This document shows, piece by piece, positions 877 through 22,302 of a stretch of 22,302 nt of DNA (positions are counted from its first letter, which is position 1; the number at the start of each line of letters is the position of its first letter). The stretch lies in IMG/VR virus record IMGVR_UViG_3300033571_003959, positions 1-22,302 of that record; one strand, written 5' to 3'. Origin of the DNA: a virus. Below the pieces are notes generated by a model. That model was not told the origin of the DNA and did not search any database. It was given only the letters and a program-made list of their open reading frames with translations. The position numbers and the translations under genes are program-made.

Positions 877-1901
877 CATTTGCAACAATATACAGAATTC
901 AAACATTGCGTAACTATGGTGACGCACAACGTGCATACCATTTGACTAAACCATTGCGAGGTCAGAAGGGTAGCGACATACGACCACTAGGCGCACGACG
1001 TGACGGTCATCAGTACTATATAGAACAGCATCAGGGCGAGAAGGGCAATGAGTTCTGGTGCTTTTTATATAACAGCCCCGTCGTGAAGTTCTTGCCTGAG
1101 GACAAGATCGAGGTGTGCACGTTCGGTTGGGGTACAGGCATGACGATGGCGTTCATTAGCCAAGTGCTAGATATTAACGCCTACCGTACTAGGGGTAACA
1201 ATGTATTCGTCATTAACGGTACTAAATACGTAACAAAGCAATCCGAGAAGCTATTGCTTGGTATCAACCCTAGCGGTACGTATTACGTAATTCACGAAGC
1301 CGAGCACCAACACTATGTGGTTAATCGCACAGGGGCTAACAATGTTAGGCGCAAGACATCGGAGTTTCGCAAATACTTGAAAGGGTTCTTATCCCTACGT
1401 ACTGAAACAGTAACCGAGAGGTTCAACTCATACAGCCCACCGGTCGAAGTTACCAGAATGACTATGGCATTGAGCGAGTATGACTTTGTGCCGAGATTAG
1501 ACCGCAAAGACTGGAGAGATAACATATATCAGATACTAGATATTGGTGACTTTAAATATTTAACGCACAAGCAAGCGTTGCACAGATTTCAATTTGTCAA
1601 TGAGCAGTTGAATGCGTTGACAGCCAATGACCAACCTGAAGATGAGCGCACCGAGAACTTCTATCGTGCTGCTTTGTTGCTATGTATAACTGCGAGGGGT
1701 GGGGAACTGGTGGTCGGGGGGTACAACGTACAAGCCGAAGATACGTTTTACGTTGCACCTGACAAAGTAACCAAACTGTTTGACGAAGCGCAGTTTAAAT
1801 TTTATAGCAAGGAAGTGTTTAACTTAGTGCCCGTCCCAAAAGGCAAAGTGCCACGCACCGACTACGACTCATGGGTTGATGCACCTTTAGTAGCAGAGTA
1901 A
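873..1901 (+). CDS. Unrecognised conserved-looking phage protein (342 aa)
   Basis: I place the start at ATG 873 because GGAG at 864-867 sits five bases upstream and the ATG overlaps the previous stop. The frame could begin at GTG 846, but that would overlap the neighbouring gene further and has no better ribosome-binding site. The product has 342 residues and is soluble, with no signal peptide or membrane segment. It contains several strands with Tyr/Val/Phe (HQYYIEQHQGEKGNEFWCFLY, GNNVFVINGTKYVT) and a C-terminal region rich in acidic and aromatic residues. I do not recognise the fold. It carries palindrome copy 2 in its coding sequence and ends just before promoter P1. Confidence 0.8.
   Translation: MTFATIYRIQTLRNYGDAQRAYHLTKPLRGQKGSDIRPLGARRDGHQYYIEQHQGEKGNEFWCFLYNSPVVKFLPEDKIEVCTFGWGTGMTMAFISQVLDINAYRTRGNNVFVINGTKYVTKQSEKLLLGINPSGTYYVIHEAEHQHYVVNRTGANNVRRKTSEFRKYLKGFLSLRTETVTERFNSYSPPVEVTRMTMALSEYDFVPRLDRKDWRDNIYQILDIGDFKYLTHKQALHRFQFVNEQLNALTANDQPEDERTENFYRAALLLCITARGGELVVGGYNVQAEDTFYVAPDKVTKLFDEAQFKFYSKEVFNLVPVPKGKVPRTDYDSWVDAPLVAE
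1336..1348. repeat. Dispersed 13-bp palindrome, copy 2 (A centre)
   Basis: Exact CTAACAATGTTAG inside the 873-1901 gene, read as Ala-Asn-Asn-Val-Arg. A weaker relative (TAACAATGTA, 9 of 13 matching positions) lies near 1196-1205 in the same gene. Confidence 0.9.
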
Positions 1902-1912
1902 TGACTAAGGAC

Positions 1913-1941
1913 TTGTATTAGGTGTAACAATGTGGTATACT
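1913..1941 (+). promoter_or_regulatory. Sigma70-like promoter P1
   Basis: TTGTAT (1913-1918) and TATACT (1936-1941) are separated by 17 bases, the optimal spacing for housekeeping sigma factors. The spacer holds a partial palindrome copy (TAACAATGTG, 1925-1934). Transcription should start near 1948, giving a leader of roughly 75 bases before the AAA+ ATPase gene. The nearest upstream gene ends at 1901, so this is a true intergenic promoter. Confidence 0.7.
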
Positions 1942-1953
1942 ATATGTATAGTA
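1938..1953. promoter_or_regulatory. Inverted repeat over the P1 -10 box and start site
   Basis: TACTATA-TG-TATAGTA is a perfect 7+7 inverted repeat with a 2-base centre. It overlaps the -10 box and the predicted transcription start. The position is typical of a repressor operator. Its sequence differs from the 13-bp palindrome, so a second regulator is possible. AT-rich inverted repeats can also occur by chance around -10 boxes. Confidence 0.45.
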
Positions 1954-1979
1954 GAGTAGTAGCAGCAGTAAAAGAGCAC

Positions 1980-1992
1980 CTAACAATGTTAG
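1980..1992. repeat. Dispersed 13-bp palindrome, copy 3 (A centre), in the P1 leader
   Basis: Exact CTAACAATGTTAG. The palindrome extends symmetrically to 17 bases, ACCTAACAATGTTAGGT, at 1978-1994. It lies about 30-45 bases downstream of the predicted P1 start site and upstream of the ribosome-binding site at 2012-2018. A bound protein here could block initiation or early elongation. Confidence 0.9.
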
Positions 1993-2025
1993 GTAATTAG
2001 TGTCCGTTATTAGAGGAGTTAGAAA

Positions 2026-3090
2026 ATGGCTGAAGTTAATTTTGGTAAGACCGTATCACTAGCACAAGCGAAGAACCTAATCATAACTAATCCTGATAGT
2101 AGGTTTATGCTAAGAGGTGAGCCGGGAATTGGTAAATCTTGGATGCTAGAAGAGATTGCCAACGCTATGGGTTATGGCTACGCATACATCGACGTGCCTA
2201 ACCTTGACTTGGGTGACATCGCTATGCCGGTGATCGACCACGAGACAAAGACTACCCGCTACTACCCTAATGCTAGGTTCGGATTGCATACAGGTAAGCC
2301 AATGGTAATCATGCTTGACGAGTTCAGTAAAGGTGCTGAGCCGGTAAAGCACATGCTTCATCCTATGCTAGAGAAGGCTAACCCTCGCTTGGGTGACTTA
2401 TCTATATCTAAAGAGAACATTGTTTTCTTGACAGGTAACTTAGCGACCGACGGTGTGGGCGATAGCATGAAAGCTCATACCTTAAATCGTATTGTGCCTA
2501 TTACAGTACAGAAACCCGATGCCGAGCAGTGGTTGACATGGGCTATACCTAACGGTGTAGAGCCTGAGGTTTGTGCATGGGTGAATCAATTCCCTCATGT
2601 ATTGGCAAGTTACACCGACCCTGCACAATCAGAGAATCCGTACATCTTTAACCCTAAGAGAGCACAGACAGCCTTTGTATCACCACGTTCGTTAGTCACA
2701 GCATCTAACATTGTTAGGACAAGACACCAAAACGATAACGACTCAGTGATTGCTGCGTTGATTGGTTCGATAGGCGAGAGCGGTGCACGTGACATGCAAG
2801 CGTACTTAGAGTTCTCTGACCAACTGCCAACATGGGAGCAAACGATTACTCATCCTACTACTACGAAGATACCCACAGACCCAGGGGCTTGTGCGATTGT
2901 GGTGTTTGGTGCTATCAGCCGAGTAGAAAAGGACACCATTACTCCATTCATGCAGTACATGGAGCGTATGTCTGCCGAGTGGCAAGCAGTGTTTGCTATC
3001 AACGTATCCAGAGCCAAAGCTAAGCAGCAGATTGCATTCTCATGCAAAGCATTCGCTGATTGGGTAGCTAAGAATCAGGACTTACTGTAA
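2026..3090 (+). CDS. MoxR/CobS-like AAA+ ATPase
   Basis: The ATG at 2026 follows AGAGGAG (2012-2018). The 354-residue product has a Walker A motif GEPGIGKS (31-38), a Walker B motif VIMLDEF (94-100), a sensor-1 region FLTGN (134-138) and an arginine in LNRIV (155). The fold is that of the MoxR/CobS branch of AAA+ ATPases. Family members work as ATP-driven remodelling chaperones with von Willebrand A partners, inserting metals or maturing protein complexes. The expected partner is encoded two genes downstream. The first gene behind P1, it likely sets expression of the module. The name CobS-like does not imply cobalamin synthesis, because no other pathway gene is present. Confidence 0.9.
   Translation: MAEVNFGKTVSLAQAKNLIITNPDSRFMLRGEPGIGKSWMLEEIANAMGYGYAYIDVPNLDLGDIAMPVIDHETKTTRYYPNARFGLHTGKPMVIMLDEFSKGAEPVKHMLHPMLEKANPRLGDLSISKENIVFLTGNLATDGVGDSMKAHTLNRIVPITVQKPDAEQWLTWAIPNGVEPEVCAWVNQFPHVLASYTDPAQSENPYIFNPKRAQTAFVSPRSLVTASNIVRTRHQNDNDSVIAALIGSIGESGARDMQAYLEFSDQLPTWEQTITHPTTTKIPTDPGACAIVVFGAISRVEKDTITPFMQYMERMSAEWQAVFAINVSRAKAKQQIAFSCKAFADWVAKNQDLL
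2705..2717. repeat. Dispersed 13-bp palindrome, copy 4 (T centre)
   Basis: Exact CTAACATTGTTAG, the complementary-centre form, within the AAA+ ATPase gene and read as Ser-Asn-Ile-Val-Arg. A shorter relative (AACATTGTT) is at 2416-2424. Confidence 0.9.
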
Positions 3091-3323
3091 TGCGTAAGCT
3101 CGATGCAATTTGTGACCCAGTAGATATTAACGTTATCTATTGGGTTGCATGGAGTGCGAAGGATAACCCTGACTGTGACCCATGGCATAGGGAGGAGTTA
3201 CTACATCGTGTGTTCAGAGATGATCGCAGGGAGAGAGGTGCTCAACCTATATCAGAAGCAATGAGTAGGGATGAAGCATATAAATTATTAGCACAGATGG
3301 CATTACTATTTAAAGGGAGCTAA
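3090..3323 (+). CDS. Small Trp/Asp-rich protein in the AAA+/VWA module (77 aa)
   Basis: The ATG at 3090 overlaps the ATPase stop codon (TAATG), so translation is probably coupled. The 77-residue product is charged and soluble (DNPDCDPWHREELLHRVFRD) with a C-terminal helix rich in Ala and Leu. No catalytic signature or known domain is visible. It sits between the ATPase and the VWA protein, so it may be an adaptor for that pair, but only its location suggests this. Its TAA stop at 3321-3323 lies inside palindrome copy 5. Confidence 0.75.
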   Translation: MRKLDAICDPVDINVIYWVAWSAKDNPDCDPWHREELLHRVFRDDRRERGAQPISEAMSRDEAYKLLAQMALLFKGS

Positions 3324-3332
3324 CAATGTTAG
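3320..3332. repeat. Dispersed 13-bp palindrome, copy 5 (A centre), across a stop/start junction
   Basis: Exact CTAACAATGTTAG. It contains the TAA stop (3321-3323) of the 77-residue gene and the ATG start (3326-3328) of the VWA gene. A protein bound here at the DNA level, or a small hairpin in the RNA, would affect the VWA gene directly. Confidence 0.9.
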
Positions 3333-4531
3333 AAGAACGTCGTTTGCAGAAGGCGAAGATAAGTCTTATGCGTAGTGAAAGATTTGCTTTGTTTAGTGGC
3401 ATCTTGATGGTTGGTCGTACGACAGTAGTAGATGACATACCAACAGCGTCAACCAATGGTCGTGACGAGAAGTACGGTCGTGACTTTGTTAAGACATTGA
3501 AGGACAACGAGCTTGCATTCTTAGTCATGCACGAAGGTATGCACAAAGCGTATCGTCACTTGACTACATGGAAGAAGTTGCATGACGAGAACCACAAGCT
3601 AGCTAATTGTGCTTGTGACTACGTTATTAACCTCATGTTACGTGACGCTGACCCAGAAGAACGCATCATCGCTATGCCTAGATACAAAGACGGTGAACAC
3701 AAGGGTAAGCACATGGGTTTGATCGACGAGAAGTATCGTGGACTCAACGCTAAGCAAGTGTTCGACCTACTGAAGCAGGAGTACGGCGGTGAGGGCGGAG
3801 AAGGCGGTGATGGTGGTGACGTATTGGATGACCATGATTGGGATGGCGCACAAGAACTAACCAAAGAAGAGAAGGAGAAGCTAGCCAAAGCAGTTGACCA
3901 AGCTATGCGTCAAGGTTTGATGGCGCATCAAAAGATTGCAGGTAAAGGTAAGGGTGGACTCGACCGAGAGTTTGCCGACTTACTCGCACCTAAGGTTGAT
4001 TGGCGAGAGGTGCTGCGTGAATTTGTTAAGGCTACGTGCCGAGCCAAAGACGCATCATCATGGCGCAGGGTGAACCGTCGTTACTTATCTACTGGTGTAT
4101 ACATGCCAAGCCTGATAGGTGAGAAGGTTGGACATCTTGTAGTAGCCATAGATACATCAGGTTCTATCGGTGGGGATGAGTTAAATAACTTTCTCTCTGA
4201 GGTGAAGGGTATCGCTGAAGAAGTTAATCCTGAGAAGGTTGACTTGTTGTACTGGGGGCATGAGGTTGAATCACATGAAGAGTATGACGGTGCAACGGTA
4301 GCTAACATTGTTAGCTCAACCAAGCCGGTAGGTGGTGGAGGTACTGCACCTAGCTGCATATCACAATACTTGAAAGAGAAGAAGATTGAACCCGAGTGCA
4401 TCATCGTATTGACTGACGGTTATGTAGGTGGTGATTGGGGTAGCGATTGGACTGCACCATTGATGTGGGTAATCGTTGGTGGTAACAAAGATATGGCAGA
4501 GCATGGCAAGACTATCCACGTGGAGGACTAG
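3326..4531 (+). CDS. CobT/COG3864-like protein: HExxH metallopeptidase-like plus von Willebrand A domain
   Basis: The ATG at 3326 follows AGGGAG with seven bases between. Residues 69-73 are HEGMH, a zinc-metallopeptidase-type HExxH motif in an N-terminal domain like DUF2201. A Gly/Asp/Glu-rich linker follows near residues 152-172. The C-terminal half is a von Willebrand A domain with the MIDAS start DTSGS (276-280), a Gly-rich loop with TAPS supplying the MIDAS threonine, and IIVLTDG supplying its aspartate. Family members (COG3864) pair with MoxR/CobS ATPases, as here. Whether the HExxH is an active protease is unknown. It could process a host or phage protein or only bind metal. Confidence 0.88.
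   Translation: MLEERRLQKAKISLMRSERFALFSGILMVGRTTVVDDIPTASTNGRDEKYGRDFVKTLKDNELAFLVMHEGMHKAYRHLTTWKKLHDENHKLANCACDYVINLMLRDADPEERIIAMPRYKDGEHKGKHMGLIDEKYRGLNAKQVFDLLKQEYGGEGGEGGDGGDVLDDHDWDGAQELTKEEKEKLAKAVDQAMRQGLMAHQKIAGKGKGGLDREFADLLAPKVDWREVLREFVKATCRAKDASSWRRVNRRYLSTGVYMPSLIGEKVGHLVVAIDTSGSIGGDELNNFLSEVKGIAEEVNPEKVDLLYWGHEVESHEEYDGATVANIVSSTKPVGGGGTAPSCISQYLKEKKIEPECIIVLTDGYVGGDWGSDWTAPLMWVIVGGNKDMAEHGKTIHVED
4302..4314. repeat. Dispersed 13-bp palindrome, copy 6 (T centre)
   Basis: Exact CTAACATTGTTAG inside the VWA domain coding region, read as Ala-Asn-Ile-Val-Ser. Here the palindrome extends to 17 bases, AGCTAACATTGTTAGCT, at 4300-4316. Confidence 0.9.
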
Positions 4532-4532
4532 C

Positions 4533-4778
4533 ATGGGCAAACTTAAATCATTGCTATTGAATATGCCTACTACGTGGGCGCAGTATAAACACTATGAGTT
4601 TACTGAGTATCACGCTAGGCGTACGTTGGAAGACCCGAAGCTATGGGTAGTAGTGAAGGTAGTAACAGATAAAGATGATAGGGTAATAAAGCAAGAAACT
4701 TTATCGGTAGGTATGAAGCGCAATCGTGCCGAAGCAATCGTTCGGCTTATGAGATCGAACCAACAACATGACAATTAA
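4533..4778 (+). CDS. Small basic protein in the AAA+/VWA module (81 aa)
   Basis: The start at ATG 4533 is chosen because GGAGG (4522-4526) lies six bases upstream. The frame stays open upstream to 4476, but that region overlaps the VWA gene. The 81-residue product has a beta-type core (LWVVVKVVTDKDDRVIKQETLSV) and a basic C-terminal helix with several Arg (MKRNRAEAIVRLMRSNQ). I do not recognise it. It lies between the VWA and DUF3150-like genes and could belong to the same complex. The basic tail could contact nucleic acid, but that is inference. Confidence 0.75.
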   Translation: MGKLKSLLLNMPTTWAQYKHYEFTEYHARRTLEDPKLWVVVKVVTDKDDRVIKQETLSVGMKRNRAEAIVRLMRSNQQHDN

Positions 4779-4789
4779 GGGAGCTAATT

Positions 4790-5647
4790 ATGAGCATAGC
4801 AGCTAGCGCAGTATTGGTAGAGTTAAACATTAGTGTATGGACTGCAAGCAAGGTTGACCGAGAGGTTACTAACCAAGTGAATGCCACAGCATCAGCAGTC
4901 TATGACGCAAGCCAAACTAAAAAGAATCTTATGGCAGGTACTCACTTACGTAAGGACATCGAGAAGTTCGCATCACGTGTTCGCTTGTATCACAATCAGA
5001 ACACATTGCCATGGGCTGACAAGGGTGAGCGACTATTGCCGACTAAGTTATTCATGGACTACAAGCAAGCTATGGATAACTACGCACAAACATTCGATGT
5101 GATGTGCAATAACTTTTACACTGCTTACCCTACGTTAGTACAGCAAGCGCAAGCTAATCTAGGCAGCATGTACAAGGCAGAGGACTATCCATCGTTAGAG
5201 GAAGTGCAAACTAAGTTCGGCTTTCGTCGTGCGGTGAACCCTATACCTGAAGCGGGTGACTTTAGACTTGATGTTAGTGCGGCTGACTTAGAGGACATAC
5301 GACAGGACTATAACCGTAAGTTCGACGAGCGACTCGCTGAAGCTATGCGAGCACCATGGGAACGCTTACATAAAGTGTTAGTAGATACAAGCACGAAGTT
5401 GACCGACGCAGAAGGTGAAGAGGATGGTAAGAAACGCTACCATGAAACACTCATCACTAATGCACAGGAGCTATGTGAGTTGCTGACTAAGTTGAATGTA
5501 ACGAACGACCCTAAGTTAGAGGTTGCCCGTAGGGAGCTAGAGCTAACAATGTTAGGTGCGGATATAGAATCTATTAAGGAAAGTTCTATTGTACGTAGCG
5601 ACATGAAGAACAAGGTCGATAACATTCTTAAACGCTTTGATTGGTAA
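4790..5647 (+). CDS. DUF3150-like protein
   Basis: The ATG at 4790 follows AGGGAG. The 285-residue product begins with VLVELNISVWTASKVDREV and continues with a Lys/Leu-rich segment. It then has RLYHNQNTLPW, a helical stretch around FYTAYPTLVQQAQANLGSMY, KFGFR, and PIPEAGDFRLDV, followed by long helices. This order of motifs matches my memory of the DUF3150 family, about 300 residues long and found next to MoxR-type ATPases and CobT-like VWA proteins in phages and bacteria. Its biochemical role is not known. It is likely the third component of the remodelling system. I rely on memory of the family, not on a search. Confidence 0.72.
   Translation: MSIAASAVLVELNISVWTASKVDREVTNQVNATASAVYDASQTKKNLMAGTHLRKDIEKFASRVRLYHNQNTLPWADKGERLLPTKLFMDYKQAMDNYAQTFDVMCNNFYTAYPTLVQQAQANLGSMYKAEDYPSLEEVQTKFGFRRAVNPIPEAGDFRLDVSAADLEDIRQDYNRKFDERLAEAMRAPWERLHKVLVDTSTKLTDAEGEEDGKKRYHETLITNAQELCELLTKLNVTNDPKLEVARRELELTMLGADIESIKESSIVRSDMKNKVDNILKRFDW
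5543..5555. repeat. Dispersed 13-bp palindrome, copy 7 (A centre)
   Basis: Exact CTAACAATGTTAG inside the DUF3150-like gene. It is read in a different frame from most other copies (Leu-Thr-Met-Leu), which argues against a shared protein motif. Confidence 0.9.
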
Positions 5648-5656
5648 GGGGGCTAC

Positions 5657-6025
5657 ATGGGATACCGTAGCGATGTAACTATATACATGTACGCAGTAGC
5701 AGAGAAAGATGCACCCGCTATTAAGTTATGGATAAAGGAGAACTTTCCCTTTGACGAATGGGCAGAGTACGTGCGTTGGGTTGACAAGGGCTTAGTGTTT
5801 GAAGCCAATCACATTAAGTGGTACGACGATTACGACGATGTTAAATCAGTCGAAGGTGCATTAGATGATTTTGAAGAGTTATTCATGAACAGTAAGCACA
5901 ATGTGCCTGAGGGTGCGTATGAGTATGTACGTATCGGTGAGGACTTAGATGATTTAGAAGTTAGGTACAGGGGTCATGTTGACTACAAGTTAGAAGTAGA
6001 ACGTAAAACATTAGTGGGGGTTTGA
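5657..6025 (+). CDS. Acidic phage protein, unknown function (122 aa)
   Basis: The ATG at 5657 follows GGGGG at 5648-5652. The 122-residue product begins MGYRSDVTIYMYAV, a start that recurs in unassigned phage proteins. It is strongly acidic, with DDYDD, DDFEE and GEDLDDLEVRY, and it ends in a strand-rich segment. There is no membrane segment and no Cys. The acidity and aromatic content are compatible with a DNA-mimic or protein-binding role, but there is no direct evidence. It follows the DUF3150-like gene by nine bases in the same unit. Confidence 0.75.
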   Translation: MGYRSDVTIYMYAVAEKDAPAIKLWIKENFPFDEWAEYVRWVDKGLVFEANHIKWYDDYDDVKSVEGALDDFEELFMNSKHNVPEGAYEYVRIGEDLDDLEVRYRGHVDYKLEVERKTLVGV

Positions 6026-6026
6026 G

Positions 6027-6872
6027 ATGAACATATATGAATTGATGAAGTTACCAAACGTGACATTCGAAGAAGGTTTAGTTGAAAGACTTAACATAGA
6101 TGACAAGACGGAGTTTGTATGTAAGGACGTACTGGTAAATACAGTATGGGAACTGGTGGGGTGTATGCCGTCATGGCGGTTTGTGGTTAGAGCTTCACGT
6201 CATGTTGCACATGCGGTGCACATCGAAAAGATTGAGGTGTTTCAAGACGGAGAGCAGATCGGTAAACTCGGTTCTACGTGGTACAGACGTAACTACTGCG
6301 TGAGTATCGGTGGCGGCAAGATTGGTGAGTATGAGCATCAACGTACAAAGGATGTGCATAAAGCAGTATTGATAGCCAAGAAAAACTTTAAGAAGAAAGG
6401 TATTGGTGACTTGCTTGATGCGGCTGATAACGAAAGCAGAAGTGTTATACGTACTGCAATGAACGACATGCAACGTAGAGTCAGTACATCATTCGACAGG
6501 CTAAGACCGCACCTTATACATTTTGCACTGACTGAACATAGAGCGGAATTTGCGGCTGCAATAAGTAACTATACCCAAGCCACAGAAGCATTGAGTACGT
6601 GGACTGATACAGATAAGGACTTAGTAGTAGCAACGGACATGGATATGGCATACAAGGCTAGGGAGTTTTACTTAGTCGTAGCAAGAAATGGACAGTACAT
6701 CGTTAGGTTTGCCGATGACAGCGCAAATATATATGATGACGGTAACTTCCCTGATGACTTACGTGGAAAGTTAGGATTATTGAAACTTCTTACGGCTGGG
6801 CAGATGGTTAGTAATGTGGGTTGCCGAGTCAATGACAATACATTCGTTCTATTAAAGGAGGAGCAATGTTAA
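6027..6872 (+). CDS. Unrecognised phage protein (281 aa)
   Basis: The ATG at 6027 lies two bases after the previous stop (GGGGGTTTGAG before it). The 281-residue product is mixed alpha/beta. An N-terminal half carries SWRFVVRASRHVAHAVHIEKI, a Gly-rich turn (SIGGGKIGEYEHQRTKD) and a Lys-rich stretch KKNFKKKGIGD. A helical middle region follows, then a C-terminal part with GQYIVRFADDSANIYDDGN. No known motif is secure. Its last codons overlap the next gene by seven bases, and that gene's start region is AGGAGGAGCAATG. Confidence 0.78.
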   Translation: MNIYELMKLPNVTFEEGLVERLNIDDKTEFVCKDVLVNTVWELVGCMPSWRFVVRASRHVAHAVHIEKIEVFQDGEQIGKLGSTWYRRNYCVSIGGGKIGEYEHQRTKDVHKAVLIAKKNFKKKGIGDLLDAADNESRSVIRTAMNDMQRRVSTSFDRLRPHLIHFALTEHRAEFAAAISNYTQATEALSTWTDTDKDLVVATDMDMAYKAREFYLVVARNGQYIVRFADDSANIYDDGNFPDDLRGKLGLLKLLTAGQMVSNVGCRVNDNTFVLLKEEQC

Positions 6873-7048
6873 AGGATGGCAAATTTATAAAAGAACCGCC
6901 GCCAAAGATCGGTGCGTTTTGGGTAGCACCGTATAAGCAGCGTGAGTTGAACAACGAAGAAAAGTTGGTTGAGGCTTTGTATCGTGGTTACAACCCTGAG
7001 CGAGTGGGGCTGACTGCTAAACTTATCAATGCGTTACTACGTATATGA
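6866..7048 (+). CDS. Unrecognised small protein (60 aa)
   Basis: The ATG at 6866 follows a strong AGGAGGAG and overlaps the upstream gene. The 60-residue product has a Pro-rich N-terminus (KEPPPKIGAFWVAPYKQ) followed by a basic, amphipathic helix (NNEEKLVEALYRGYNPERVGLTAKLINALLR). No domain is recognised. The start region AGCAATGTTAAAG is a degenerate form of the 13-bp palindrome (9 of 13 positions), an arrangement like that of the VWA gene start. The TGA stop at 7046-7048 overlaps the next ATG. Confidence 0.7.
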   Translation: MLKDGKFIKEPPPKIGAFWVAPYKQRELNNEEKLVEALYRGYNPERVGLTAKLINALLRI

Positions 7049-7149
7049 TTTGGGTTAGCTTTGTTTTGATGTTAAGCGGGGCATTACTATGGACTGCGGT
7101 ATTGTGTGCAGTAGTAATGTGGTTCGTTCACAAGTACATGGGGGAGTAA
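7045..7149 (+). CDS. Tiny single-pass membrane protein (34 aa)
   Basis: ATG at 7045 (overlapping the preceding stop as ATGA) to TAA at 7147-7149. The 34-residue product is almost entirely hydrophobic: MIWVSFVLMLSGALLWTAVL continues into CAVVMWF and ends in HKYMGE. It should be one transmembrane helix with a short charged C-terminus. There is no strong ribosome-binding site, so it probably depends on coupling to the upstream gene. It is the second very small membrane protein in the window. The function is unknown; holin-related or envelope-modifying roles are guesses. Confidence 0.6.
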   Translation: MIWVSFVLMLSGALLWTAVLCAVVMWFVHKYMGE

Positions 7150-7346
7150 TGGATAGAAGGTACTGCACTTCATGCTCTGCAACAAAACCTACTGAGGGTG
7201 GGCGCATGAAGCGGAGTAATAAGATTAACCGATGGCAATGCAAATGGTGTGCTGAAGGTGTAACACCAAGCATATATTCATCTAAACCTAAGGAGGTACT
7301 AATTGACAACGGGGATAGAGTTGTTGAAGCCGGAGAAGAAGCGTAA
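7149..7346 (+). CDS. Small four-cysteine zinc-finger-like protein (65 aa)
   Basis: The ATG at 7149 overlaps the previous TAA (TAATG) and follows GGGGGAG. The 65-residue product has CTSC (Cys6, Cys9) and CKWC (Cys31, Cys34), a C-x2-C-x21-C-x2-C pattern that should bind zinc. Basic residues (KRSNKINRWQ) lie between the pairs, and the C-terminus is acidic. This is consistent with a small zinc-ribbon regulator or a partner of nucleic-acid enzymes. The frame is open upstream to 7089, but the start there would overlap the small membrane gene and has no ribosome-binding site. The end overlaps the following gene by 44 bases. Confidence 0.7.
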   Translation: MDRRYCTSCSATKPTEGGRMKRSNKINRWQCKWCAEGVTPSIYSSKPKEVLIDNGDRVVEAGEEA

Positions 7347-7506
7347 GGGGCGGGGGCTTGCAAAGAAACCCGCTTTATTTTGTACAAGCTTACGACTACC
7401 GACGGAGGTGATGGAGTATTTCAACAAACACTTTCCATACACCAAGCAAGCAAAGATGCGGGAGATTCTAACCGAGTACGTTCGACAGAACACCGCAGAC
7501 CATTAA
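7303..7506 (+). CDS. Ribbon-helix-helix-like small protein, TTG start
   Basis: The start is TTG at 7303, six bases after AAGGAGG (7290-7296), a near-perfect ribosome-binding site. The 67-residue product has a basic N-terminus (KKRKGRGLAKK). A short strand follows (ALFCTSLRLP, about 24-32), then a helix (TEVMEYFNKHF, 33-43), a turn, and a second helix (TKQAKMREILTEYVRQN, 47-63). This strand-helix-helix order matches ribbon-helix-helix DNA-binding proteins such as CopG, Arc or BrnA antitoxins, which bind short inverted repeats as dimers. The gene ends at 7506 and a palindrome copy follows directly (7508-7520). It may be the repeat-binding protein; that is inference. Confidence 0.6.
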   Translation: MTTGIELLKPEKKRKGRGLAKKPALFCTSLRLPTEVMEYFNKHFPYTKQAKMREILTEYVRQNTADH

Positions 7507-18474: not shown

Positions 18475-18502
18475 AGCCCCCGCCTCCATGGGGGCTTTTT
18501 TT
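18475..18502 (+). terminator. Rho-independent terminator for the + strand
   Basis: Stem AGCCCCC (18475-18481) / GGGGGCT (18490-18496), loop GCCTCCAT, then seven T residues (18496-18502). It stops the P3 transcript at the junction with the converging minus-strand gene, whose stop codon (18501-18503) shares its last bases. On the minus strand no T tract follows the hairpin, so it is one-directional. Confidence 0.9.
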
Positions 18503-21500
18503 ATTCCCGTTCTCTTTTACGTTCTTCAATTTCTTTAGTTGCATTTATTATGGCTTCTTTTTGTTGCGGCGTAGCTTTCTTTGGGTCAATACGTATTCCA
18601 CCCCAATTCTCAGCAACACCACGTTCTTTCAACCGTTTCTCAATAGAGTCTTTTATATTTTTAGGTTTGATTGCATACTCAGGATGCTTCCTGTTAAATT
18701 TCTCTACTTCATCTAGACGTTTAAGGTATTTCTCACGTGCTGCATCTGTGTCAAAATTATCTAGCTCAATATACTCACGCCCTACGTTATTAAGAAGTTT
18801 AGAACGTTCGTTATTAAGACGTTGATCCATAGCTTGCATCTTAAATGCTAGCTTCTGATGGTTTGAGAGTATGTCGGAGTTAAAGCCAACAAATCTACCT
18901 ATTAACTCTCCAGTAGTGAAGCCACCCTTAGCAATGATCTCTGCACCTTTACTATCCATCGCACCTTCTGTACGTAGTCGGTTAGCAATCACAATGTTGC
19001 GTAAAAGCGCAGGTGAAATTTTCTCTACACCTTTTTGGTACTGACCATTCATAAAGGCTTCTATACCATCTGCCCATGCAAGTACCAGATTTGCTGAAGG
19101 ACCGGCTTTCTCAACAGCTAATGCTATTGCACTCTCTCTAAGAGTCTTGGTTTCTTTTACGTCACGCAGCCATAAATCATTTAAGCTTGTACGACTTGCA
19201 ATATCAAGACCCGTCAGCGCATTGACAGCGCCACGATCAACAACTTTAGTTACAAGATCACCTAGCTGCACACCACCAATTTTAAGATACCCTAAGTTTT
19301 CAGGGAGCCAAACAGTGCGCCACCATGTCTCATAGTCCATATCCTTTAAATCTTCTGGCTTATCTTCATCTTTCCAGAATGAACCTAAGAAACCCATGAC
19401 TGTACTAAACATTGGTAGACCCGGTGTACCGGCTAGCAAGAATGTTGTGCCGAGCGTACCGTAAAACATCTTAGCGGCTTCCCACTTACCTTCTTCGTTT
19501 AATAGTGGTAATGAACGTTTAAAGTTACGTAGTAAGAACAACGTTACATGTAAGGGGTACATGGTAAATTGCAGCAATATCCTACCAATACCCTTCTGCA
19601 TAAAGATAGGACGATTGTATTGACCGTAGTTACCTAATGCTTCGTTAGTATCTATAACCGCTGCATCAACTGCTTGCTCGTGGGGCTTACCTGCTTTCCG
19701 GTTAAGTCTGTATGAAGCCATGAACATCATCTCTCTAGATAGACGTTCGGTGGTGTGCATCAAACCGCCGGTAAGCATTGCTGCGCCACGTTTAGTCTTA
19801 CCCCATGCTGAATCAAACTCCATGGTCGGCACACTACTGTAACCAAACAACGCACTCGCATAAGTAGATTGTGATACATCGCGCCCTAGCATCTCACGCA
19901 CAGCACGCTTTTCATCTGCGCTAAAGCCCGACGCATTTACAATACTTGGTGGGACAACGGATACAGAACCATCAGGATTTTTACGGAATACACCGTACTG
20001 ATCCCAAACTTTTAACATCCTTGTTAGTTCTACTGTTGCTTTGGTATACCCATATCTAGCACCTAATACGTTTGTACCTGTTTGAAATACACCAACAGGC
20101 TGCATCAAAGCAGACGCCATACCAGATAGATAATGGATAAACGACGCACGGTTAAAGAATGTGCCGATTGCATTTAATTTACCGCTAGCCTCAGGGTTCA
20201 TCATTTGATTAATGCGTGCTTGCATTTCATCAACAAAAGGTTCTAGCTCTTCTCTACCTACTATGGAATCCCTAGCCGCAGATATAGAATTACGCATTAG
20301 TGGTGAATACTTTAACTTAGCAAGCTGCGTAGACATCTTGACACCAGTAGTAGATATATTACGTAGTAAGTCCGTTGAGAAACCTGTTATGTTTTTACGG
20401 GTGATAAACTGCCTACGGAAGCTCTGCTCCGGCATTGTGTTTAAATACAACTGATACACAGCATCTTTTAATTCTTCTCTAGCTTCAGGTGATGTGAAGT
20501 CTTGTGAATCTATGACATCAAACATACCTTTTAGCAGACCACTTGAGTCATACGATGCACGGCGCAACGAACCTATATCATTACCAAGTACAAATGTCTG
20601 ATCTTCTTTAAGTTGCTGTAATGGTGTGCGACGTTCTTTAGCAAATCCTTCGGCTGCTGAGTTACGCTGAGCTAGTGTTTCAAACGTATAGAACTGACGA
20701 TGTTTACCAGAACCGATAGCTAGCCAGTAGTCGCCACGACGCACCAACGGGAAGTAGGGTTTAATTTTACTGCCCGTTTCATAGATGGTTCTAACCATAG
20801 CCATCAAACGATCTCTTGCTTCTGGTGATACGTTAGAATTAATAATCTGTTCGTCCAACAGATGTGAGAAGTAGTCTGATAGATTTTCGTAGTGTTCTTT
20901 AACTAGCTTGTATATCTGCTGACCTTTGAACCCTAAATCCGCATACATTTTATCCAACTCTGTACTACGTTCTTTTGCATTAGGGTCGGATGGGTCAATT
21001 TCATCAAGAGTAGCTGTGTACACAACATCTTCCAACTTGTTTTGTAAAGTGGAGTCTTTTTTGTATGCCTTGTGAATTGTCTGAGCAAGGATAGCAGCCG
21101 AGTTTAACAACTGCTGTGTCAAACCACCCATCTTTTCCATAAGAACATTAATATTCTTAAGTTGAGGTATTTGCTCCCCAGCCCATGAAGTCAAAAACTC
21201 TGTAGTTGGCAACGTAACTAATATCTTACGCTCTTGGTAAGTAGCAGTTTTCCATATCTGCTGCATAGAAGGTATGATCTTATCAGGGTCACGTAACCCT
21301 TGTAATGAACTCACATCCCGAGCAAGCTCCTCGGCTTGTCTACTTAACCGAATCTTCTCAAGATTAATCTTTGTTTCTTTATCAATCTCTTTTTGAGTCC
21401 TTACTGCTTCTTCTCCGTCTTCTTCACCTTCTTTAGTTTGCGCTAATACTTGTGGGGCAAGTGGTTCCAACTTACCTACTTCACGTGCGGTTAAAAGTGA

Positions 21501-22302
21501 GTCAGTTGCGTTGATTAAATCAGCTAACGCATTAGCATCGTTTACATCCATACCAAAGAAGTTACGGATTGAATCAACAAAACGATTGAAGTAACCGACT
21601 GGGCTTGGCTGCCCATACGCAGTTTTCAGGAATTCCTGCATTGCAGGGTCCGTCATGCCATAAGCTAAGAACTCACGTGGGTCATCAAAGATTTCACCAA
21701 ATCTAGCTAGGTTGGATATATGTGGGGGTAATTTATTTTGGTCAGCAAGTTCATTAAACCGGTCGCCTGCATTATTCATTACTTCTACAAGCTCATTAAA
21801 CGCACCGATTAAAGCTTTGTCGCTGTACTGCCCGTTGTCTATAGCTTGCTTAGCAAGCATGATCTTTCTGTTTGTTGCGGCGTGCAATAGCTCATGCAAC
21901 ATCGTAATGTTGTTAACACCTTGATCAGCACCAAAGGATGCGCCACGAACGTAGATTACTTTCTTCTTATCAAAATCACCTTCAACAAATACAGCACGTG
22001 CACGATTCCATTCACGTTCATAACGTGGGTTCTTCAGGAAGATGTCAGGTGTTGGTTGATTAGCTTCGACTACAACTATCTTTACATTGCCGACTGAACT
22101 ACGAATGCGCCGAGCCAATATCTTCTGGAACTCATTACCTGTTTTAATGATCTGGGTTATTGCTTGTGCACCGTTAGTTACTTTGCCTAACTTCTCGTCG
22201 GCTATGGTGTCGGCTGCCGCAGCTTCAATAGTTTTAGACATCGAAGACATGCCGATAGTCCCAGTCTTCTTGCGGAGTGCGTGTCCTTGCTCTGCATCTA
22301 CC
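18501..22302 (-). CDS. Giant virion-associated polyvalent protein with HExxH motif, 5' end outside window
   Basis: The minus-strand frame runs without stop from the window end (22302) to TAA at 18501-18503. An internal ATG lies at 22250, but 17 in-frame codons precede it, so the true start is likely outside. Numbering from that internal ATG (1249 residues), HELLH is at 119-123 within LHELLHAATN, a zinc-metallopeptidase-like motif. EIFDDPREFLAYGMTDP further on could supply a third ligand. A long helical region follows, then hydrophobic stretches (GRILLQFTMYPLHVTLFLL and GTLGTTFLLAGTPGLPMFST). Large phage proteins of this type are packaged in the virion and injected with the DNA ('large polyvalent proteins'). 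Confidence 0.82.
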   Translation of the reverse strand, partial: VDAEQGHALRKKTGTIGMSSMSKTIEAAAADTIADEKLGKVTNGAQAITQIIKTGNEFQKILARRIRSSVGNVKIVVVEANQPTPDIFLKNPRYEREWNRARAVFVEGDFDKKKVIYVRGASFGADQGVNNITMLHELLHAATNRKIMLAKQAIDNGQYSDKALIGAFNELVEVMNNAGDRFNELADQNKLPPHISNLARFGEIFDDPREFLAYGMTDPAMQEFLKTAYGQPSPVGYFNRFVDSIRNFFGMDVNDANALADLINATDSLLTAREVGKLEPLAPQVLAQTKEGEEDGEEAVRTQKEIDKETKINLEKIRLSRQAEELARDVSSLQGLRDPDKIIPSMQQIWKTATYQERKILVTLPTTEFLTSWAGEQIPQLKNINVLMEKMGGLTQQLLNSAAILAQTIHKAYKKDSTLQNKLEDVVYTATLDEIDPSDPNAKERSTELDKMYADLGFKGQQIYKLVKEHYENLSDYFSHLLDEQIINSNVSPEARDRLMAMVRTIYETGSKIKPYFPLVRRGDYWLAIGSGKHRQFYTFETLAQRNSAAEGFAKERRTPLQQLKEDQTFVLGNDIGSLRRASYDSSGLLKGMFDVIDSQDFTSPEAREELKDAVYQLYLNTMPEQSFRRQFITRKNITGFSTDLLRNISTTGVKMSTQLAKLKYSPLMRNSISAARDSIVGREELEPFVDEMQARINQMMNPEASGKLNAIGTFFNRASFIHYLSGMASALMQPVGVFQTGTNVLGARYGYTKATVELTRMLKVWDQYGVFRKNPDGSVSVVPPSIVNASGFSADEKRAVREMLGRDVSQSTYASALFGYSSVPTMEFDSAWGKTKRGAAMLTGGLMHTTERLSREMMFMASYRLNRKAGKPHEQAVDAAVIDTNEALGNYGQYNRPIFMQKGIGRILLQFTMYPLHVTLFLLRNFKRSLPLLNEEGKWEAAKMFYGTLGTTFLLAGTPGLPMFSTVMGFLGSFWKDEDKPEDLKDMDYETWWRTVWLPENLGYLKIGGVQLGDLVTKVVDRGAVNALTGLDIASRTSLNDLWLRDVKETKTLRESAIALAVEKAGPSANLVLAWADGIEAFMNGQYQKGVEKISPALLRNIVIANRLRTEGAMDSKGAEIIAKGGFTTGELIGRFVGFNSDILSNHQKLAFKMQAMDQRLNNERSKLLNNVGREYIELDNFDTDAAREKYLKRLDEVEKFNRKHPEYAIKPKNIKDSIEKRLKERGVAENWGGIRIDPKKATPQQKEAIINATKEIEERKRERE

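Follow-up and report, generated by a model that had tools for sequence, protein, structure and literature searches.

In the NorQ/NorD system, a VWA finger plugs the pore of the MoxR hexamer, and the target, gripped by the MIDAS, is remodelled through ATP hydrolysis (PMC9976466). Both NorQ/NorD and RavA/ViaA combine a MoxR ATPase with a VWA/MIDAS adaptor, as does the locus described here, but they lack a zincin domain and a DUF3150 protein and act on respiratory enzymes. A pair consisting of an ATPase and a zincin-VWA protein is already known from phages. N4 genes 24 and 25, which are core genes of N4-like phages and belong to the middle transcripts (PMC4193335, PMC7650795), and their Schitoviridae homologues (PHROG 1297/1314) likewise encode a MoxR-type ATPase followed by a DUF2201_N-DUF2201 protein. 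Iyer et al. (2021, PMC7824862) describe a jumbo-phage MoxR-vWA pair with an N-terminal metallopeptidase, the same two-protein architecture as in the present locus, for which virion assembly was proposed; their passages on it present the system as a pair and mention neither a third protein nor a plasmid counterpart.

Three-part arrangements have been recorded on plasmids. In pCAR1 (ORF100-103 region) and R478, MoxR, DUF3150, and VWA genes resemble those examined here, the central gene encoding a genuine PF11348 protein (PMC2642839), but the VWA partner is NorD/CoxE-like and lacks the zincin domain. The three-gene composition of pCAR1 was noted earlier with the family of the middle protein unnamed, and the region was reported in 2009 as conserved also in Rts1, SXT, and R391 (PMC2642839). 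In the open literature searched, no description was found of a link between the third gene and the ATPase/VWA pair or of the trio on PRTRC/T4SS plasmids of Burkholderiales, and the term "DUF3150" was not encountered.

The sequence analyzed (the window) corresponds to an entire IMG/VR record (22,302 bases) from a freshwater phage and is probably a phage genome fragment. All five open reading frames (ORFs) that a first-pass annotation had delimited between positions 2026 and 5647 were found, as follows.

2026..3090, plus strand: MoxR-type AAA+ ATPase gene (354 aa; Walker A GEPGIGKS, Walker B MLDE, sensor N)
3090..3323, plus strand: small ORF (77 aa), not conserved, with a homologue in 1 of about 80 loci
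3326..4531, plus strand: gene for a protein with a DUF2201_N zincin-like domain and a DUF2201 VWA domain (401 aa; HEGMH at residues 69-73, MIDAS intact)
4533..4778, plus strand: small ORF (81 aa), not conserved, with homologues in 2 of about 80 loci
4790..5647, plus strand: DUF3150-superfamily protein gene (285 aa, mostly helical; remote homology)

The two small ORFs had been proposed as dedicated subunits, a role contradicted by their sparse distribution and ruled out by relatives with too little space for one of them or both (L007, L015, and L080). Several relatives have a gap of 13 to 34 bp between the ATPase and VWA genes, where the 77-aa ORF would sit, and several have a gap of 11 to 29 bp between the VWA and DUF3150-like genes, where the 81-aa ORF would sit. 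A 122-aa gene (5657-6025), 30 to 47% identical to its relatives, lies 3' of the trio in the window and between the ATPase and VWA genes in many relatives, and this change of place suggests that the intergenic gaps of the trio hold movable cargo. At 18501-22301 on the minus strand, a gene for a DarB-like antirestriction/polyvalent protein (LPD39) is cut by the window end; a relative (L169:10551-19226) has a single ORF of 8.7 kb at the matching place, the match being one of position.

The three proteins and their conservation

The 2026-3090 product is identified by its sequence as a MoxR-type AAA+ ATPase. It scored 25.9 bits against Pfam AAA_5 (PF07728; cutoff, 22) and matched phrog_1297 ("ATPase") over its full length (E = 3e-47). 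The GxPGxGK motif, Walker B D98, N138, and R155 were conserved among 69 aligned homologues, and median identity was 74% across 71 loci. The product had been termed MoxR/CobS-like; the MoxR part of that name is borne out by the AAA_5 score and the Walker motifs, whereas the CobS part is not, since no window protein matched a CobS or CobT family in Pfam or NCBIfam. In the phage loci compared, the ATPase gene adjoins the gene for the VWA protein.

The 3326-4531 product matched both DUF2201_N (PF13203; 99.4 bits; cutoff, 23.2) and the DUF2201 VWA-like domain (PF09967; 55.1 bits; cutoff, 26.4), as well as phrog_1314 (E = 1e-87), in agreement with its first description as an HExxH-VWA protein and putative peptidase. 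Among 42 aligned VWA proteins of the phage group, H69, E70, and H73 of the HExxH motif, together with N94, D98, and N102, were invariant, as were MIDAS residues D276, S278, S280, T340, and D364 (DTSGS/T/D); D98 is a candidate third metal ligand. All of these residues were at least 97% retained across 89 sequences that included N4, MinM2, and plasmid homologues. Among these 89, a Variovorax plasmid homologue lacks the HE of HExxH, which indicates that proteolysis would not be essential everywhere. The VWA fold in the structure model of the protein (pLDDT, 78) was confirmed with Foldseek and VIA-align against PDB VWA domains (Z up to 12.9); the VIA-align matches, obtained with the whole model, cover the VWA domain only. 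The top Foldseek match was the MIDAS domain of human midasin, which is itself a component of an AAA+/VWA machine. PHROG 1314 is labeled "HNH endonuclease," although its Pfam matches are to a putative metallopeptidase and a VWA domain; this label, apparently an annotation error, has been carried over into records of N4 and Vibrio phages.

The 4790-5647 product is remotely but convincingly related to DUF3150, as judged from profile comparisons. It had no significant match in Pfam, PHROG, or NCBIfam and did not reach the gathering score of PF11348 (DUF3150). The homology part of the original "DUF3150-like" assignment therefore holds, and direct Pfam membership does not. By tblastn, relatives were detected in phage MinM2 and its near-duplicates at 27% identity and, weakly, in Tunturi_3; relatives were also present in 44 plasmids, with up to 32% identity over nearly the full length. 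A plasmid homologue (L088) scored 22.1 bits against PF11348, just below the cutoff of 24.9, and a Manganitrophus plasmid protein passed that cutoff. A profile built from 12 phage and plasmid relatives matched this genuine PF11348 member at 99.7% (E = 2e-25, 279 columns), and comparison with the DUF3150 proteins of pCAR1 and R478 gave 81% (E = 1e-5); a profile of phage sequences only was too narrow to detect the homology. The best BFVD structure match of the third protein was named DUF3150. Its AlphaFold model was weak (pLDDT, 64) and had no significant match in a PDB comparison, and no confirmed relative was found in the bacterial genomes searched with the third-protein alignment. In a Manganitrophus plasmid (L091:5824-6710; compare L090), the DUF3150 gene is split into two overlapping ORFs.

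The ATPase, VWA, and DUF3150-like genes co-occurred in related phages as one unit, as had been suggested from the window. In loci picked by the VWA protein, the three genes were in the same order wherever the contig reached. In loci picked by the third gene alone (some records of which overlap the VWA-picked set), the VWA gene was upstream in all 48 that had enough upstream sequence, and the MoxR gene was present in all 37 that had still more. All three genes were under strong purifying selection, with dN/dS values of 0 to 0.17 compared to 0.18 to 0.39 for flanking genes. Identity between relatives was about 60 to 80% for the trio and mostly 25 to 40% for the flanking genes at 846-1901 and 6027-6872. 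Given the invariable co-occurrence and the low dN/dS values, the grouping of the trio is not due to chance.

Counterparts in other phages and on plasmids

Homologues of the VWA protein were present in 767 INPHARED records, N4-like phages included, and the best schitovirus matches were about 30% identical to the window protein. Unlike in the window, the annotations of N4 and Acinetobacter phage nACB1 show no DUF3150 gene next to the ATPase/VWA pair. N4-like phages thus keep the pair without an annotated DUF3150 neighbor, and the third protein is not universal. Phage MinM2 carries ATPase, DUF3150, and VWA-like genes in an order that differs from that of the window. Three further records (OQ594354, OL906435, and PP438419) are named for different cyanobacterial hosts, are each 65,014 bases in length, and match at identical identity; the stretch of them that was read has a G+C content of 69%, and the three records may represent one heterotroph phage.

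A tightly packed ATPase-DUF3150-like-DUF2201 trio was found on plasmids of Cupriavidus, Burkholderia, Paraburkholderia, Robbsia, Variovorax, and Rhodovastum, several of which have PRTRC and VirB-type T4SS genes adjoining it. All three window families are present on these Burkholderiales and Rhodovastum plasmids, in the order ATPase-DUF3150-VWA rather than the ATPase-VWA-DUF3150 order of the window. The trio probably serves phages and plasmids alike as a common tool of mobile DNA.

A palindrome array around the trio

Nine copies of the 13-bp palindrome CTAACAWTGTTAG (CTAACA-n-TGTTAG) were found in the window, compared to 0.07 expected, and all of them are in the first 10 kb (starts at 140, 1336, 1980, 2705, 3320, 4302, 5543, 7508, and 9680). 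Five of the nine sites are in or just upstream of the trio unit, as follows.

1980..1992, unstranded: palindrome CTAACAATGTTAG, intergenic, upstream of the ATPase gene
2705..2717, unstranded: palindrome CTAACATTGTTAG, inside the ATPase gene, at an offset (679) that is the same in several relatives
3320..3332, unstranded: palindrome across the VWA gene start codon, in the same place in many relatives
4302..4314, unstranded: palindrome inside the VWA gene
5543..5555, unstranded: palindrome inside the DUF3150-like gene

All copies in the long relatives examined were in one block of 4 to 15 kb that holds the trio; for example, a 67-kb relative had 16 palindromes within 9.2 to 21.6 kb, and a 60-kb relative had 12 within 28.3 to 39.7 kb. 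Phages with a two-base spacer had their palindromes likewise confined to one block. The half-site was conserved, and the spacer was 1, 2, or 3 bases long depending on lineage (L002-L081), with a one-base array in 39 of 81 sequences, a two-base array in 32, and a three-base array in 1. Another relative (L078) has the palindrome CTGACA-nn-TGTCAG, and the distant phage MinM2 has a palindrome of its own. About 180 of 792 palindrome sites overlapped a likely start codon.

Between close relatives, the spacers change length in a concerted manner. Two of these relatives (L017 and L021) share 84% identity over a stretch of 11.6 kb, and every TAACA/TGTTA site has a two-base spacer in one and a one-base spacer in the other. 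A further relative (L013) retains two one-base sites, at least one of which falls within the ATPase gene at a point where an extra base would cause a frameshift; these sites look like a relic of an older spacer state. Corndog-type mycobacteriophages have a similar palindrome array (PMC4351075); stoperators differ from the CTAACAWTGTTAG palindromes in being asymmetric (PMC4351075). A search of six 60- to 67-kb records gave no tyrosine integrase.

A gene at 7303-7506 (67 aa; present in 64 loci; median identity, 73%) is the only small gene in the region that is so conserved. Its product, which had no Pfam match, reads as ribbon-helix-helix-like and is a candidate DNA-binding partner of the palindromes. 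It was rejected as the factor that sets spacer length, because the L017 and L021 copies are 94% identical yet the spacers of these two relatives differ. A promoter (P1) had also been proposed over the trio, but promoter-like matches in the region from 1700 to 7100 were rarer than the shuffle mean (6 versus 10.1), and the proposal is not supported.

Possible action of the trio

The reading preferred here, at a probability of roughly 0.6, is that the trio is an element-encoded three-component MoxR/VWA machine with the DUF3150-type protein as third subunit, acting inside the cell. In such a machine, the ATPase encoded at 2026 would assemble as a hexameric ring on which the VWA domain of the protein encoded at 3326 would dock; the MIDAS of that domain would grip a target protein, ATP hydrolysis by the ring would pull on the gripped target, and the zincin-like domain of the DUF2201 variant could cut it. 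The conserved Walker and MIDAS residues fit the NorQ/NorD scheme. The DUF3150-type protein encoded at 4790 would be the constant third subunit, most likely an adaptor for target selection or presentation. The occurrence of the same trio on plasmids leads one to expect that the machine acts in the infected or recipient cell and not in the virion. The zincin domain can be absent or degenerate on plasmids on which the ATPase, VWA, and DUF3150 components persist, so that the protease looks like an option on a remodelling core. That no infection role is settled for this kind of unit, as the first-pass annotation had remarked, agrees with the literature on N4 gp24/gp25; N4-like phages are absent from the CRISPRi-ART phage gene-fitness paper.

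Several roles could be envisaged for the trio. It is possible, though not favored, that it removes or degrades a host defense or regulatory protein at phage or plasmid entry, which would suit a trio common to phages and conjugative plasmids, a DUF2201_N domain that could cleave proteins, and a phage genome in which the DarB-like antirestriction protein is also encoded. However, PADLOC gave no match for the trio or its plasmid counterpart, no link to defense was found, and the core status of the pair in N4-like phages suggests a general rather than a strain-specific need.

Nearly as probable is a role in remodelling replication or recombination complexes, in which the machine would strip or mature the DNA-processing complex of the element. 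Genes for DNA polymerase A, lambda-type exonuclease, VRR nuclease, and a helicase are neighbors of the phage trio; ssb, RecT, and lambda-exonuclease genes are about 10 to 16 kb from the trio in pCAR1; a toprim protein is encoded close to the R478 trio; and N4 gp24/25 are upstream of replication genes. Such neighbors are nevertheless typical of any early phage region and of plasmid backbones, the distances are large, and nothing ties the trio directly to DNA.

A role in virion assembly or maturation, with the pair acting as chaperone and cochaperone and a peptidase processing capsid or tail proteins, seems unlikely. Iyer et al. (PMC7824862) put it forward for this domain pair in jumbo phages, taking Acidianus two-tailed virus as the analogy, and a structural module is near gp24/25 in N4-like roseophages (PMC4193335). 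The phage trio, however, lies among DNA polymerase, exonuclease, and helicase genes and, in relatives, at a distance from the structural genes; N4 gp24/25 belong to the middle genes; and the trio is present on plasmids that make no virions, a distribution that renders virion assembly improbable as its general role, though conceivable for the window phage. Of the first suggestion of an ATP-driven protease or metal-insertion machine, the putative MoxR/VWA unit with a metallopeptidase-like domain is retained, while a CobS/CobT-type metal chelatase or metal-insertion machine is highly improbable: the MoxR/VWA pairs NorQ/NorD and CoxD/CoxE assist metal-center assembly (PMC7159879, PMC9976466), but the CobS/CobT models had no match, and no metalloenzyme gene was recognized among the scanned window products or the plasmid neighborhoods examined.

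The three-component machine acting in the cell admits a more speculative extension, offered tentatively, in which DUF3150 would be the defining third subunit of one machine of phages and conjugative elements, with an interchangeable VWA partner (with a zincin domain or none), and this machine would serve the establishment of incoming DNA in a new host, for example by removing a blocking host protein. The N4 genes 24 and 25 are core to a whole phage family, and many of the 767 phage records with homologues of the VWA partner are mislabeled. That plasmids also carry this machine, constant third protein included, makes virion assembly a weaker general explanation, and tests of conjugation and of phage growth can be run side by side in laboratory strains.
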